A stretch of 64,000 bases of DNA, from NCBI GenBank assembly GCA_020248945.1, contig JADCGQ010000004.1, positions 186,001-250,000 on the forward strand. The letters run 5' to 3'. A model generated the notes under the pieces. That model saw only the letters and a program-made list of their open reading frames with translations, searched no databases and was not told the DNA's origin. The stretch comes from Rubrivivax sp. (lineage in GTDB: Bacteria; Pseudomonadota; Gammaproteobacteria; Burkholderiales; Burkholderiaceae_C). The position numbers and the translations under genes were made by a program. Shown piece after piece: positions 2,461-59,143 of the stretch (its first letter is position 1; every line of letters begins with the position of its first letter).

Positions 2461-3174
2461 TCACCAGTCGCGCAGCTTGGTGCGCAGCCGCGCGATGCTC
2501 TGGCTGTGCAGCTGGCAGACGCGGCTCTCGGTCACACCCAGCACGGCGGCGATTTCCTTGAGGTTCATGTCGTGCTCGTAGTACATGCTCATCACGTACT
2601 GCTCGCGCTCGGGCAGGTTCTTGATGGCGTCGACGAGCGCCTGGCGCATGCGCTGGTCTTGCAGCCGCGCCACGGGGTTGGCGTCGGCGTCCATGACGTG
2701 GCGGTCGAGGTAGTCGTCGTCGCCGTCGTCGCCGCTCATGTCCTCGAGGTAGATCAGCTGCGTGCCACGCACCTTGCCCAGCAGTTCCTGGTAGTCGGTG
2801 AGCGACAGCCCCATCTCGCGCGCGATCTCGCTTTCGCTCGGGGCGCGGCCAAAGCGCTGCTCGAGCTTGTGCACGGCGGCCTCGATGCTGCGCTGGTGGC
2901 GGCGGTCGCCCCGGCTCATCCAGTCGTTGCCGCGCAGCTCGTCGAGCATGGCGCCGCGGATGCGCTGGGTGGCGAAGGTCTCGAACTGCACGCCCTGGCT
3001 GGCGTCGAAGCGCGACAGCGCGTCGTTGAGGCCGATCATGCCGACCTGGATGAGGTCGTCGAGTTCGACGTTGGCCGGCAGCTTGGCGATCATCTGGTGC
3101 GCGAGGCGGCGCACGAGCGGGCTGTACTGCTTGAGCAGAGCGCCGGAGTCGAGTTGTCCCTTGGCGGTGTACAT
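2461..3174 (-). CDS. fliA: Flagellar sigma factor sigma-28
   Basis: 237 residues, close to E. coli FliA (239). Sigma region 2 is visible around residues 38-82 (DDLIQVGMIGL, FETFATQRIRGAMLDELRG). Region 3 follows (GRAPSESEIAREMGLSL). A region 4 helix-turn-helix lies near the C-terminus (NLKEIAAVLGVTESRVCQLH). It directs RNA polymerase to late flagellar and chemotaxis promoters, several of which are recognisable in this window (upstream of motA, cheY, the HD-domain gene and the small RNA). The start at MYTAKGQ gives the family length; longer upstream starts would run into flhG. It sits 14 bp behind flhG in the flhB-A-F-G-fliA operon. FlgM, its antagonist, is not in the window. Confidence 0.97.
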   Translation of the reverse strand: MYTAKGQLDSGALLKQYSPLVRRLAHQMIAKLPANVELDDLIQVGMIGLNDALSRFDASQGVQFETFATQRIRGAMLDELRGNDWMSRGDRRHQRSIEAAVHKLEQRFGRAPSESEIAREMGLSLTDYQELLGKVRGTQLIYLEDMSGDDGDDDYLDRHVMDADANPVARLQDQRMRQALVDAIKNLPEREQYVMSMYYEHDMNLKEIAAVLGVTESRVCQLHSQSIARLRTKLRDW

Positions 3175-11441: not shown

Positions 11442-12302
11442 TCACTTCTTGCCTTTCACGTGGCTCTCGAGCTCCAGGAAGGTGGGCCGGGCGGTGCTCA
11501 GCAGCACCTTGCGGCCGAATTCAATCGCCACCTGCGGGGCGTAGCCCTGCATGCTGGCCAGCAGCGTGGTCTTGATGCACTGCAGCTCCTTGCCGCTTTC
11601 CTCGACCTTCTGTTCCAGCAGGCCGGCCAGGGGCTCGGCAAAGGCATAGGCCAGCAAGATGCCGAGGAAGGTGCCGACGAGCGCCGAGCCGATCATCGCG
11701 CCGAGCACGGCCGGCGGCTGGCCCACCGAGCCCATGGTCTTGATCACGCCCAGCACCGCGGCCACGATGCCGAAGGCCGGCAGGCCGCCGGCCACACGCT
11801 GGATGGCCGCCACTGGCGCGTGCGCCTCGTGGTGGTGGGTCTCGATCTCGCTGTCCATCAGCGACTCGATCTCGTGCGCGTTGAGGTTGCCCGAAACCAT
11901 CATTCGCAGGTAGTCGGTGATGAACTCGGTGACGTGGTGGTCGTTGCCCACGGCCGGGTACTTCTGGAACAGTGGCGAGCTGTGCGGGTCCTCGACGTCC
12001 TTCTCGATGGACATCAGGCCTTCCTTGCGCGCCTTCTGCAGGATGTCGTAGAGCAGCGCCAGCAGCTCCATGTAGCGCGCCTTGGTGTACTTGCTGCCCT
12101 TGAAGCAGCTCAGCGCGCCGGAGATCGTGCCCTTGATCACCGTCATCTGGTTGTTCACCAGGAAGGCGCCCAAGGTGGCGCCGCCGATCATGGCCATTTC
12201 CCAGGGCAGCGCTTTCAGGATGGGGCCCATGTTGCCCCCGTGGGCGATGAACACCCCGAAGACGCAACCCATCACGACGACCCAACCGATGATGACGAAC
12301 AT
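11442..12302 (-). CDS. motA: Flagellar stator proton channel subunit
   Basis: 286 residues, normal MotA length. Four transmembrane segments: residues 1-20 and about 30-50, then two after residue 165 (GGLPAFGIVAAVLGVIKTMG and MIGSALVGTFLGILLAYAF). A cytoplasmic loop carries the charged motor-contact region (KARKEGLMSIEKDVEDP). Pro residues of the channel helices are kept. It forms the stator with MotB, encoded 115 bp downstream. A FliA-type promoter lies 55-80 bp upstream, overlapping the end of the preceding gene. Confidence 0.98.
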   Translation of the reverse strand: MFVIIGWVVVMGCVFGVFIAHGGNMGPILKALPWEMAMIGGATLGAFLVNNQMTVIKGTISGALSCFKGSKYTKARYMELLALLYDILQKARKEGLMSIEKDVEDPHSSPLFQKYPAVGNDHHVTEFITDYLRMMVSGNLNAHEIESLMDSEIETHHHEAHAPVAAIQRVAGGLPAFGIVAAVLGVIKTMGSVGQPPAVLGAMIGSALVGTFLGILLAYAFAEPLAGLLEQKVEESGKELQCIKTTLLASMQGYAPQVAIEFGRKVLLSTARPTFLELESHVKGKK

Positions 12303-12356: not shown

Positions 12357-12383
12357 TTATCGGCAAGCCGCTGCGGCCATTGA
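12357..12383 (-). promoter_or_regulatory. FliA (sigma-28) promoter for motA-motB
   Basis: TCAAT (12383-12379), 14-base spacer, then a perfect GCCGATAA -10 (12364-12357). The motA start lies 55 bp downstream. The TAA of the -10 element is the stop codon of the upstream methyltransferase-like gene, so the promoter is embedded in that gene's 3' end. Confidence 0.8.
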
Positions 12384-13245: not shown

Positions 13246-14469
13246 TCAGTGCAGCCGCGAGGCCGCAGCCGCCAGCGCCAGCACCTTCTCGTGCACGAAA
13301 CGCACCTTCACGCGCTCGGGCAACACCGCGGCCTTGACGGCATGGCGCTGCTCGAGGGTGTCGCGCAGCATGGGCTCGGCGTAGACATCGCCATTGGCCG
13401 AGATGAGCGCCGCAACCAGCGGCAGGTTGGCCCGCCGGCCGCGCGAGACGACGATGCCGATCTCGCCACTGGCGAGCTCCACGAAGCTGCCGGGCGGGTA
13501 CAGGCCCACGCTGCGCAGCAAGGCACTGCCCACCTCGTCGGGCTGGCCGTTCGGCCCCAGGCAGGCCTGGCGCGCCGCCATCAGGGGCGACATCGCCGGG
13601 CGCGCGGCTCGACGGCGGATCTTGGCGCCGAAGATGTCGACGCGGCGCAGCAACCGCGCCAGGCGCCGGGCCGGCGGCTGGCTGGAGAGCGGCTCGTTGT
13701 CGGTGCTCGCGTCGTGGTGGTGCAGCACCGCCTCGATGGCCAGCATGTCGGCCAGACCGGCGCCTGACAGTTGCGCGGCGCTGCGTGCGGCATGGGTGTC
13801 GATCTCCCGCCGCTGGTGGGGCGTGGGCGGCGCATGCGCCATGGCGAGCTGGTCCTGCAGGCGCAGCATCGACACGTTCATGGTCAGTGCGGCCAGGCCC
13901 AGGCTGTCGATCTCAGCCTGCGGCCAGCCCAGCATGCGGGCCACCCGCTCGGCCACCACCTGTGTGATCCAGGCATGGTGGGCACTGTAGTGCTCGGTGA
14001 AGTGCACCCCTTCGTACACGAGGTAGTAGAGCGATTCATCGAAGCGCTTGTCCGTCATGGCGCGCGAACGGGCGTGCAGCTCCTGCAGGCGCGAGCGCCA
14101 ATCGGTGTCGGGGCGCAGCTCGCGCAGCGTGGTGTCGAGCCGGCTGCGCAGCTCGAACCAGTGCTCGCCGGTGGACAGCGTGCGCGCCACGGGCTCGCGC
14201 GGGGCGGCGTCGGGCAGCGCGCGCACCACGTCCTTCAGGGCAGCGCCCTGGCGCAGCTGCTGGTCCATGGCCGCCGCCACGCGGCGCCGCCATTCCGCGC
14301 AGTGGTGCTCTTCGGCGAACAGCGGCTGCTCCAGCAGCTCCTGGCGCTGGCGATCATCGGTCACCGTGGTGCCGGCACCCAGCAGCAGCCGGCCGCTGGC
14401 GTCGCGCAGCGCAAACGGCAGTGCGCGGTCAAGGGGCAGGTCCTGGAAGTTGACGGAAACGAGCTTCAC
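13246..14469 (-). CDS. Degenerate HD-GYP-type protein in the flagellar region
   Basis: 407 residues from a GTG. Layout resembles Burkholderiales HD-GYP proteins: an N-terminal DUF3391-like part, a central helical domain (YYLVYEGVHFTEHYSAHHAW, then VLHHHDAS) and a C-terminal YPPGSFVELASGEIGIVVSR segment. The metal-binding HDxxK box is replaced by ALTMNVSMLR, and HHExxDGxGYP is reduced to HHHDASTDNE. It is therefore unlikely to hydrolyse cyclic di-GMP, but could sense it or act as a scaffold for motility control. A FliA-type promoter lies immediately upstream, with a predicted start at or next to the GTG, suggesting a leaderless mRNA. Confidence 0.65.
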   Translation of the reverse strand: MKLVSVNFQDLPLDRALPFALRDASGRLLLGAGTTVTDDRQRQELLEQPLFAEEHHCAEWRRRVAAAMDQQLRQGAALKDVVRALPDAAPREPVARTLSTGEHWFELRSRLDTTLRELRPDTDWRSRLQELHARSRAMTDKRFDESLYYLVYEGVHFTEHYSAHHAWITQVVAERVARMLGWPQAEIDSLGLAALTMNVSMLRLQDQLAMAHAPPTPHQRREIDTHAARSAAQLSGAGLADMLAIEAVLHHHDASTDNEPLSSQPPARRLARLLRRVDIFGAKIRRRAARPAMSPLMAARQACLGPNGQPDEVGSALLRSVGLYPPGSFVELASGEIGIVVSRGRRANLPLVAALISANGDVYAEPMLRDTLEQRHAVKAAVLPERVKVRFVHEKVLALAAAASRLH

Positions 14470-14476
14470 AGGTGGG

Positions 14477-14504
14477 CTATCGGCACGGCCACCCCAATGC
14501 TGTA
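14477..14504 (-). promoter_or_regulatory. Possible FliA promoter for the HD-domain gene
   Basis: TACAG (14504-14500), 15-base spacer, GCCGATAG (14484-14477). Transcription would begin about 7 bases downstream, at or beside the GTG start (14469). This implies a leaderless transcript unless the true start codon differs. Confidence 0.5.
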
Positions 14505-14560: not shown

Positions 14561-14587
14561 AAAAAAAGCGGGCCCCGAGGGGCCCGC
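14561..14587 (-). terminator. Rho-independent terminator
   Basis: Stem GCGGGCCCC/GGGGCCCGC with a 2-3 base loop (arms 14587-14579 and 14576-14568), followed on the minus strand by seven T (14567-14561). It would end both the flhDC transcript and the candidate small RNA. Confidence 0.85.
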
Positions 14588-14645
14588 GCAAAAGCACAGA
14601 GAACTGTGCCAGGAGGAGACGAACAATGAAAAATCACCCGAACTG
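14561..14645 (-). ncRNA. Candidate sigma-28-dependent small RNA with anti-Shine-Dalgarno segment
   Basis: Between flhC and the HD-domain gene the minus strand carries, in order: a FliA-type promoter (TCAAG-N15-GCCGATAC, 14679-14652); about 40 bases of unpaired sequence containing GUCUCCUCCUGGC; a small hairpin GCACAG-UUCU-CUGUGC; and a strong terminator (9-bp GC stem, then seven T). The predicted transcript is about 85 nt. The CUCCUCCU stretch is the complement of a full Shine-Dalgarno sequence and would be free to pair with target mRNAs. No protein is encoded on this strand here. The boundaries are inferred from promoter and terminator spacing. Confidence 0.5.
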
Positions 14646-14651
14646 TTCAGG

Positions 14652-14679
14652 GTATCGGCGGCGGCGGGCGCGGTCTTGA
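14652..14679 (-). promoter_or_regulatory. FliA (sigma-28) promoter of the candidate small RNA
   Basis: TCAAG (14679-14675), 15-base spacer, GCCGATAC (14659-14652), about 30 bp beyond the flhC stop. The only thing between it and the terminator at 14561-14587 is the small-RNA segment. Confidence 0.6.
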
Positions 14680-14707: not shown

Positions 14708-15259
14708 TCAATGCGCGTGCGCGCCGATGCGCAGCGAGCCCGCGGCCTTGCCCTTGCCGGCGCGCGCCGGCGGGTTGCACAAGCCGCACACGTAGTGGCG
14801 GGCGATCTCGTGCGGGTGCGTCACGAAGTGGCCACCGCACTTGCTGCAGGCCGTCATCGTCAGCATGCCGTTGTCGACGAACTTCACCAGGCGCCAGGCG
14901 CGTGTCACGCTCAGCAGCGGCTCCAGGCCTTCGGACTGCATCTGTTCCAGGTACAGCTGGTAGGCCTTGATGACGGTGTCGATCTCGTCGAGCGCCGCCA
15001 CCTTGTTGAGGTACTCGTGCATGTTCAGGAACAGGCTCGAGTGGATGTTGGGCTGCCAGGTCATGAACCAGTCGGTCGAGAACGGCAGCTGGCCCTTGCT
15101 GGGGCTCTTGCCGGCAACCTCTTTGTACAGGCGCAGCAGGCGCTCGTAGCTGAGGTCGGTTTCGCTTTCCAGCACCTGCAGCCGTGCGCCGAGGTGGATC
15201 AGCGTGACGGCACGCTCGATCTGCCGGGCTTCGGTGAGGATGCTCTTGGTTCGTGCCAT
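14708..15259 (-). CDS. flhC: Flagellar master regulator subunit FlhC
   Basis: 183 residues from MARTKSILTE. The zinc site is intact: Cys138, Cys141, Cys158 and Cys161 (ACSKCGGHF and YVCGLCNPP). FlhC pairs with FlhD as FlhD4C2 and activates class II flagellar promoters. An upstream in-frame ATG would add 12 residues, but the family start matches this one. It follows flhD after a 121-bp spacer that holds a copy of the dispersed hairpin repeat, so relative FlhC output could be tuned by that structure. Confidence 0.97.
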   Translation of the reverse strand: MARTKSILTEARQIERAVTLIHLGARLQVLESETDLSYERLLRLYKEVAGKSPSKGQLPFSTDWFMTWQPNIHSSLFLNMHEYLNKVAALDEIDTVIKAYQLYLEQMQSEGLEPLLSVTRAWRLVKFVDNGMLTMTACSKCGGHFVTHPHEIARHYVCGLCNPPARAGKGKAAGSLRIGAHAH

Positions 15260-57893: not shown

Positions 57894-59087
57894 TCAGACC
57901 CAGGCGGGCTTGGCCGGATTCAGCGGCGCCGTGGCGCGGCTGCGCGGCCACACGACCTCGAATTCGCCCTTCTGCCACTGGCTCACGGTGCCGGGCACGC
58001 CGACGTTTTCGCTGCCGTTGAAGCGGATGTCGCCGAGGATCGTCTTGTGTGTGCCGCCGGCCACGAAGTCGCGGATGGCCTTTTTGTCCAGGCCCACCTT
58101 GGCCACCGCGGCCGTGAGGATCTCCAGCCCCGCCCAGGTGGCGCCGCTGGCCCAGCGGTCGGGCTCCTTGGCGGCGCCGAACTTCTTCACGTGGGCGTCG
58201 AAGTAGGCCTTGGCCGCCGGGCTCGTCTTGCCGTTCCAGCTGCCCATGCCCAGCACACCCTCGGCACCCGCCTGCATGACGTTGCGGTACAGCTGGAAGG
58301 CCGTGCCCACGCTGGCGTAGAAGAACTTCGGGTTGAAGCCGATCTCCTTGCTCTGGCGGCTGGCCAGGATGGTGTCCGGCGGGTACGTGAGGCCGATGAA
58401 GGCGTCGGGGTTCTTGTCCTTGAAGCCGCGCAGCACGGGGCTCAGGTCCTTCACGCCCAGCGGGTAGCTCTTGTCCTCGACGATGCTGATGCCGCTGCCG
58501 GCCAGCGCCACCTTCAGCGCGGCGTAGTTCTCCAGGCCGAAGAGGTCGTCCACGTAGATCACGGCGGCCGTCTTCGCGCCGTTGGCCTTGAGCATGTCGA
58601 CCAGCGCGTCCATCATCGGCTTGGGCTGCTGCAGCAACAGGAAGAAGTACGGCAGCTTCATCTCCACCAGCCGCCGGCTCAGCGCCGTGGGCGCCAGGAA
58701 CGGGTACTGGAAGCGGTTGGCCAGCGGCGCGACGGCGAAGTTGGCGTTGCTGCCCCAGGGCGGCAGCACGAGGTCGACCTTGTCGCTGCCCATCAGCTTT
58801 TCGTAGGTGCGGACGCAGGTCTCGATGTTGCTCTGGTCGTCGCTGCTGATCAGCTCGATGGGGCGCTTCGTGCCGCGCACATCGAGCCCGCCAGCGGCGT
58901 TGACCTGCTCGGCCCAGAGCAGGTAGTTCGGCTCCTGGCTCGTCTGCGCGCCCACGCTCCACGGGCCGGTGCGGGCCATCGCGTAGCCGATGCGCACGGG
59001 CGCCGTGCCTTGCGCGAAGGCGGGGAGTGCCGTGGTGGCGGCCGTGGAGGCCAGGGCTTGTACGACGGTGCGGCGGTTCAAGGTCAT
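57894..59087 (-). CDS. Periplasmic binding protein of the Liv-type transporter
   Basis: 397 residues from MTLNRRTVVQ, with an RR-containing signal peptide ending near PAFAQG. Type I periplasmic binding fold (RIGYAMARTGPWSVGAQTSQ, ELISSDDQSNIETCVRTYEK, TAAVIYVDDLFGLENY, FIGLTYPPDT). It selects the substrate of the livHMGF system. First gene of the operon, 229 bp from the divergent AraC regulator, with tandem 21-bp repeats between them. Confidence 0.9.
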   Translation of the reverse strand: MTLNRRTVVQALASTAATTALPAFAQGTAPVRIGYAMARTGPWSVGAQTSQEPNYLLWAEQVNAAGGLDVRGTKRPIELISSDDQSNIETCVRTYEKLMGSDKVDLVLPPWGSNANFAVAPLANRFQYPFLAPTALSRRLVEMKLPYFFLLLQQPKPMMDALVDMLKANGAKTAAVIYVDDLFGLENYAALKVALAGSGISIVEDKSYPLGVKDLSPVLRGFKDKNPDAFIGLTYPPDTILASRQSKEIGFNPKFFYASVGTAFQLYRNVMQAGAEGVLGMGSWNGKTSPAAKAYFDAHVKKFGAAKEPDRWASGATWAGLEILTAAVAKVGLDKKAIRDFVAGGTHKTILGDIRFNGSENVGVPGTVSQWQKGEFEVVWPRSRATAPLNPAKPAWV

Positions 59088-59143
59088 GGCTTGTCTCCTC
59101 GTTGGGGTGTGCGGCGGATTGTTCGCGGCCGCCCCAGGGCTGT

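Follow-up and report, generated by a model that had tools for sequence, protein, structure and literature searches.

The window, the whole 64,000-nucleotide stretch of DNA that was analysed, derives from a Rubrivivax-like betaproteobacterium; among the matches listed, the best relative of its FlhC is 98% identical and belongs to a Rubrivivax MAG. One predicted small RNA (sRNA) of ∼85–90 nt is located on the 3′ side of flhC (Table 1). It is followed by a gene without any Pfam match, a methyltransferase-like gene, motA and motB, with two other genes lying between the sRNA and motA. The gap between the end of flhC and the promoter-like site of the sRNA is 28 bp on the minus strand. Two further FliA-like sites are present on the same strand: TACAG-N15-GCCGATA, which agrees at 10 of 12 positions and stops 5 nt short of the GTG that starts the next gene, and TCAAT-N14-GCCGATA, which agrees at 11 of 12 positions and is located 55 nt 5′ of the motA start. 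With the site before motA, the flhC–motA interval contains three successive FliA-like sites.

Table 1. Positions of the genes and predicted elements, in window numbering
Feature	Position	Strand	Evidence or remark
flhC, gene upstream of the sRNA	14708..15259	minus	Pfam FlhC, 285 bits; translation
Sigma-28 (FliA)-type promoter	14653..14679	minus	−35 TCAAG 14675-14679, 15-bp spacer, −10 GCCGATA 14653-14659; pattern count and scoring of relatives
Predicted sRNA, ∼85–90 nt	14561..14650	minus	fold z −5.1; covariance model R1, 82.4 bits
Anti-Shine-Dalgarno seed GUCUCCUCC	14612..14620	minus	CUCCUCCU = 14611-14618
Hairpin 1, GGCACAG-UUCU-CUGUGCU, 7 bp	14593..14610	minus	fold, alignment, covariation
Intrinsic terminator	14561..14587	minus	8-bp all-GC stem 14568-14587 and seven T 14561-14567; terminator search, fold
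Gene downstream of the sRNA, GTG start	13246..14472	minus	no Pfam match; own FliA-like site 14478-14504
motA	11442..12302	minus	Pfam MotA_N, 117.8 bits; FliA-like site upstream, 12358-12383
fliA, sigma-28 gene	2473..3138	minus	TIGR02479, 280 bits, above cut-off; = G000:C34:188473-189138
Putative target site AGGAGACAAGCCATG preceding the gene of a periplasmic binding protein	59085..59099	minus	prediction only

The sRNA is predicted to start a few nucleotides 3′ of the −10 box, and its terminator is probably also that of the flhDC mRNA. The sequence-only reading of this DNA had placed a sigma-28-type promoter, about 40 unpaired bases, a small hairpin and a strong terminator with seven T on one strand. 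The promoter was found as TCAAG-N15-GCCGATA, and the hairpin and terminator as a 7-bp hairpin and an 8-bp GC stem on that strand. The unpaired stretch holds only in part: in the minimum-energy fold much of the 5′ leader is paired, but CUCCUCC of the seed is not; its predicted unpaired probability averages 0.95 (window RNA, leader cut at 30 nt). Over 66 sequences, the predicted accessibility of the seed has a median of 0.69 and a minimum of 0.16, and is above 0.8 in 25, all with an arbitrary 30-nt leader. The fold of the 90-nt RNA has an energy of −36.9 kcal/mol (z −5.1), which was equalled by none of 200 shuffles. It had also been stated that the stretch encodes no protein; one open frame does run from a GTG at 14637 across the RNA into the next gene, but this frame is not kept. 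The distances from the core to the T run, taken modulo three, fall in all three remainders (24, 24 and 18 of the 66 sequences), so no reading frame is conserved. A coding origin was rejected, as neither the minus-strand frame nor a 17-codon plus-strand frame is kept in relatives.

Conservation of the RNA and its promoter

We compared 80 flhC loci, the best 80 among the matches listed; they are close relatives and not independent samples. Besides the window, the core and terminator were found downstream of flhC in 65 of these 80 loci by pattern. The sequence-only reading had proposed a covariance search of related genomes; model R1, built on the new RNA, adds four loci (L003, L037, L053 and L057), which brings the RNA core downstream of flhC to 69 of the best 80 among the matches listed. 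Two of the 11 remaining loci (L039 and L064) stop at a contig end, and no RNA was found near flhC in the other nine, including Sphaerotilus natans, Azohydromonas lata and a Mitsuaria; L074 gave a 17-bit match only. The RNA is present in Rubrivivax gelatinosus and R. benzoatilyticus (L013 and L015). By R1, it has a single copy in the genome of the window, at 82.4 bits, the next match having an E value of only 3.8.

In the alignment of 66 sequences, which come from the best 80 flhC loci among the matches listed, GTCTCCTCC is intact in 60. The anti-Shine-Dalgarno (anti-SD) segment is the best-conserved element of the RNA in close relatives, and hairpin 1 is also kept. The pattern expected of a mere flhDC terminator, namely loss of the promoter and the anti-SD segment while the terminator stays, is not what these close relatives display. 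The 5′ leader varies among relatives, which argues for little target specificity outside the seed. Eight of the 12 consensus pairs changed on both sides. Most of the compensation is carried by the terminator stem (seven of eight modelled pairs changed on both sides); of the four modelled pairs in hairpin 1, one changed on both sides and three vary on one side only. Paired cells amount to 95.8%, versus 90.0% in shuffles, none of 500 shuffles being as high. When the partners were slid, pairing fell to 26–55%, a control that favours a structure drawn from the same sequences.

Promoters were scored against TCAAG-N14..16-GCCGATA (12 positions) over 110 nt 5′ of the core; since the template is the window's own site, the window scores 12/12 by construction. 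The count covers 63 of the 66 sequences, window included, L043, L048 and L077 being excluded for short upstream DNA. A score of at least 10/12 was observed in 42 of the 63 upstream regions (relatives from the best 80 listed), versus ∼0.5% of 1260 shuffles, and in 0 of 63 on the antisense strand; eight regions scored 8 or below. The promoter-like site is usually 22–57 nt 5′ of the core. The DNA 3′ of the terminator was rejected as a neutral control, 27 of 63 loci having a FliA-like site of at least 10 there; because this DNA itself carries such sites, the antisense strand was taken instead. In L131, L155 and L186, the core lies 21–25 nt past the end of the flhC match, and the best promoter scores are 9, 8 and 8, respectively. 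As the promoter is not universal (these three loci; eight of 63), sigma-28 would not be the sole route to the RNA, which in L131, L155 and L186 may come from the flhDC mRNA.

The exact string TCAAG-N15-GCCGATA occurs seven times in the genome of the window, versus 0 for the reversed pattern; TCAAG-N14/15-GCCGAWA occurs 23 times, versus one. Pfam was run on nine proteins downstream of the 23 sites. FliD, FliS, CheW, CheD and one YcgR-like PilZN protein stand behind five of them; the others are one protein with an Hpt domain, two HDOD-like proteins (one below cut-off) and one without match. We read TCAAG-N14/15-GCCGAWA as the putative sigma-28 consensus of the host, which also possesses fliA (Table 1). 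At the level of sequence, anatomy, conservation, covariation and promoter enrichment support the sequence-only reading of a separate sRNA gene behind a FliA-type promoter of its own, and the anti-SD segment it carries is conserved. We regard the gene as almost certainly real, and its expression in the host is very likely driven by sigma-28.

Beyond the 80 loci, 66 of 200 family genomes match the model at E ≤0.01, and flhC was found in 141 of the 200. Same-strand matches within 300 nt downstream of flhC number 39 and come from 37 of the 200 sampled genomes. This count took only flhC matches of at least 83% identity (69 genomes), and in 32 of these 69 no model match was found within 300 nt of flhC. 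Among the matches of at least 46 bits, 36 of 42 are flhC-adjacent; four of the other six are located 0.8–2.1 kb from flhC, directly 5′ of motA (G305, G351, G383 and G445), and a TAAAG-N14-GTCGAAA site is retained in G351 and G445 despite that distance. Promoter sites are also retained in L053, L057, L180 and L181, where the RNA moved off flhC. Among the weaker matches away from flhC are canonical RF02278 RNAs, as tests of L183 and L184 showed. In 23 distant family genomes (flhC 68–80% identical), CUCCUCC does not occur in the 300 nt after flhC, where no match to the model exceeds 9.6 bits; a FliA-like site of at least 10 is present there in three of these genomes, and some, by eye, show just a terminator-like hairpin 3′ of flhC. 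Owing to the lack of a match near flhC in 32 of 69 genomes and its absence from the 23 distant ones, the RNA unit marks part of the family and not every flhDC bearer.

Two loci outside this pattern were observed. Genome G366 has four model matches, and its copy L182 lies behind an NAD-binding epimerase-type gene (by eye), with a promoter score of 7/12. In G327, a 44.8-bit match (L177) lies behind a phasin-like gene (by eye), and flhC was not found in that genome at E 1e-10; L177 is possibly a relative of the sRNA outside the flagellar locus.

Relation to described RNA families

At Rfam gathering thresholds, no family matched in the window or in ten relatives. The RF02278 class (Betaproteobacteria toxic small RNA; NcS03, NcS05, NcS27 and NcS62 of Burkholderia cenocepacia) consists of short RNAs with two hairpins, in which a UGUCUCCUCC-type sequence, complementary to ribosome-binding sites, is left unpaired. 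Like them, the window RNA has a GUCUCCUCC-type stretch, predicted to be unpaired and varying among members, 5′ of two hairpins, the second of which is the terminator. Different from them, its hairpin 1 has no second CU tract (CCUCC), which is found in the first hairpin of a canonical copy in the same genome and of most distant loci read; the window RNA also adjoins flhC, carries a sigma-28-type promoter and coexists with that canonical copy. The latter (L236, G000:C23:42447-42509) scores 64.4 bits and is the sole RF02278 match there; across the family, RF02278 is over its cut-off in 144 of 200 genomes. Membership of the window RNA was rejected at 15.9 bits against a gathering cut-off of 50, and the RF02278 model gave no match at E up to 0.5 on the flhC-side members L128 and L099. 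Because of this score, the single CU tract and the separate canonical copy, the RNA would act like the RF02278 class without being a member of the Rfam family. As so few bases are compared, the likeness of the seeds may reflect either common descent or convergence. Across the order, R1 matched in 69 of 299 genomes, with up to 49 bits in other families, for example RNAs like TTGTCTCCTCCACCCTCCTCCTTTGGTGGATT; all seven such loci tested are RF02278 over cut-off (57.6–68.6 bits).

Two other Rfam models gave sub-threshold matches. Bp1_781 (RF02423, NcS02 of Burkholderia) was rejected, with 22.1 bits in the window and 27.8 for L182 against a cut-off of 80 for its 230-position model; the likeness is weak and local, consisting of GUCUCCUC followed by a GCGGG terminator. 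In L128, positions 1663-1729 on the minus strand match an IRES family at 24.7 bits (cut-off 40), probably by chance.

Double-hairpin RNAs of this kind have been studied in related bacteria. In excerpts of PMC5688073, the B. cenocepacia RNA NcS27 and its homologues are short, with two hairpins and a CU-rich stretch that by prediction masks ribosome-binding sites, and a processing site is given for NcS27; an excerpt of a review (PMC10987360) adds that NcS27 alters phenylalanine/tyrosine catabolism and carbohydrate transport. A similar RNA is S17 of Bordetella pertussis; according to PMC11722255, it is processed, it represses one gene directly in a reporter test, and its processed form S17S is non-toxic in exponential E. 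coli. In these excerpts, the sites of action of double-hairpin RNAs, by prediction or by experiment, are ribosome-binding sites (PMC5688073, PMC11722255), and overexpression of RF02278 members inhibits growth (passages of PMC4603805 and PMC5688073). The earlier remark that the RNA belongs to no described family therefore stands for Rfam at cut-off but has to be amended, as anti-SD double-hairpin RNAs (RF02278, NcS27, S17) are described in the same bacterial class. On our best reading, the sRNA belongs to the anti-SD sRNA class as a variant confined to one clade and controlled by sigma-28.

In its genomic position the RNA resembles MotR. According to excerpts of PMC10578931, sigma-28-dependent sRNAs are known in E. 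coli, and MotR is one whose promoter also serves motAB-cheAW; it pairs with fliC and rpsJ and raises flagella number. Like MotR of E. coli K-12, the window RNA has a FliA-type promoter at the flhC end, is short, ends at an intrinsic terminator and occupies the flhC–motA slot, where the window has both a sigma-28-type promoter and a terminator. MotR differs in having no CUCCUCC. Homology was rejected, since R1 on the E. coli flhDC–motA region scores only 3.5 bits at MotR (E 2.2).

Candidate targets, proposed function and alternative explanations

AGGAGAC is exactly complementary to GUCUCCU. AGGAGAC-N4-9-ATG occurs 74 times in the genome of the window versus two for the reversed pattern, which indicates that AGGAGAC is a real type of ribosome-binding site. 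Of the 74 rows, two record a single site and a third is the RNA's own antisense, leaving 72 further distinct sites. Eighteen were opened; as they were picked for longer complementarity, their functions are an unfair sample. Seventeen begin frames of at least 120 aa (L231 has only 37 residues), and Pfam was run on 16 of these 17, L239 being left out. The 16 comprise 11 enzymes or redox proteins, two transport binding proteins and three regulators. The enzymes and redox proteins are an acyl-CoA dehydrogenase, a 4-hydroxyphenylpyruvate dioxygenase, a glutathione transferase, a dienelactone hydrolase, an FMN-dependent dehydrogenase, an enoyl-CoA hydratase, two short-chain dehydrogenases, an isocitrate/isopropylmalate-type dehydrogenase, a molybdopterin oxidoreductase and a SoxA-type cytochrome; the regulators are two response regulators and one of AraC type. 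These candidates, chosen sites without an enrichment background, resemble the target classes reported for NcS27 and S17. The sequence-only reading had envisaged a feedback onto class I/II flagellar genes; this finds no backing, as none of the 18 chosen sites precedes a recognised flagellar gene (16 tested with Pfam).

For a longer complement, GGAGGAGAC-N3-9-ATG, the genome has just two occurrences, including the antisense of the RNA itself, which points to few strong targets or to short pairing. The candidate start of the enoyl-CoA hydratase gene carries GGAGGAGAC. With a 20-mer complement and up to three mismatches, only the RNA's own site was found in its own genome. CATTG, the complement of a start codon, is present in 20 of 66 sequences. 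From these two results, a single dedicated target with a conserved complement to its Shine-Dalgarno sequence and start codon was rejected. We consider it fairly probable that the RNA represses several mRNAs through its anti-SD segment; that the targets are mainly metabolic and transport genes is possible, if somewhat doubtful.

Late in flagellar assembly, export of FlgM frees sigma-28. Once FliA is freed in this way, sigma-28 polymerase would transcribe the sRNA; as a second source, the RNA would probably also be released from the 3′ end of the flhDC mRNA, which has the same strand and terminator, and it may be processed and aided by Hfq. GUCUCCUCC would be exposed ahead of the two hairpins, pair with (A)GGAGAC-type Shine-Dalgarno sequences and block ribosome binding on several mRNAs. 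Once the flagellum is complete, a set of metabolic and transport genes would then likely be translated less. As a whole, this sigma-28-driven anti-SD sRNA at the MotR slot is our best explanation, and we judge it probable.

Since the unit is directly 3′ of flhC on the same strand, it would end the flhDC mRNA, and several of the 23 distant relatives show by eye just a terminator-like hairpin; the whole could then be the flhDC terminator with a chance promoter-like string and no function in trans. This is very unlikely, because the unpaired GUCUCCUCC, of no use in termination, is the best-conserved element (60 of 66), hairpin 1 persists, promoter-like sites are far commoner than in shuffles or on the antisense strand, and in four genomes the unit is 0.8–2.1 kb from flhC, just 5′ of motA. 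An RNA cut from the 3′UTR of the flhDC mRNA would instead report class I transcription, the FliA site being minor. Only one terminator-like site is listed on the same strand in the flhC–RNA interval, a weak one of six pairs inside the leader (14637-14651); members without a good promoter exist (L131, L155 and L186), and excerpts record processing for S17S (PMC11722255) and a processing site for NcS27 (PMC5688073). We hold this origin to be unlikely as the main one: the FliA-type site is conserved in most members at its usual distance from the core, and it was kept in L053, L057, L180 and L181 after the RNA had left flhC.

The slot and the promoter–terminator plan shared with E. coli MotR would also suit a regulator of a few flagellar or ribosomal-protein mRNAs, in which the CU segment faces one conserved partner and not many Shine-Dalgarno sequences. 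MotR lacks CUCCUCC and scores 3.5 bits with R1, however, and the 20-mer search (up to three mismatches) gave no other strongly complementary site in the own genome, which makes this quite improbable. On the plus strand, AGGAGGAGACGAACAATG (within 14611-14679) provides a perfect Shine-Dalgarno sequence and an ATG for the 17-codon frame opening at 14626, and conservation of the minus strand could be the shadow of such a small ORF. The chance of this is negligible: the ATG complement is present in only 20 of 66 sequences, and the 20 frames range from 6 to 31 residues, 12 of them still open where the stretch ends, and diverge in sequence after the first residues.

Sigma-28 sRNAs (E. coli) and anti-SD double-hairpin RNAs (Burkholderia, Bordetella) are known separately; searches of open-licence PMC papers listed no report joining both, nor any anti-SD RNA dependent on sigma-28 or any sRNA next to flhDC in the Rubrivivax-like group. 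We tentatively propose, as a reading with slightly less than even odds, that the MotR slot of the Rubrivivax group and related bacteria holds a metabolic-shutdown anti-SD RNA, a hard-wired link through which completion of the flagellum, by way of free sigma-28, and possibly the flhDC mRNA, would repress translation of metabolic and transport genes with (A)GGAGAC sites; it would represent an sRNA family missing from Rfam and, judged by the same searches, the first sigma-28-controlled double-hairpin member. If so, the regulatory RNAs in the flhC–motA slot have quite different seeds from one lineage to another, and the flagellar-completion checkpoint here commands a repressor that acts broadly on translation. 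In these non-pathogenic bacteria, the implied trade-off between the costs of motility and metabolism would be testable by one small deletion.
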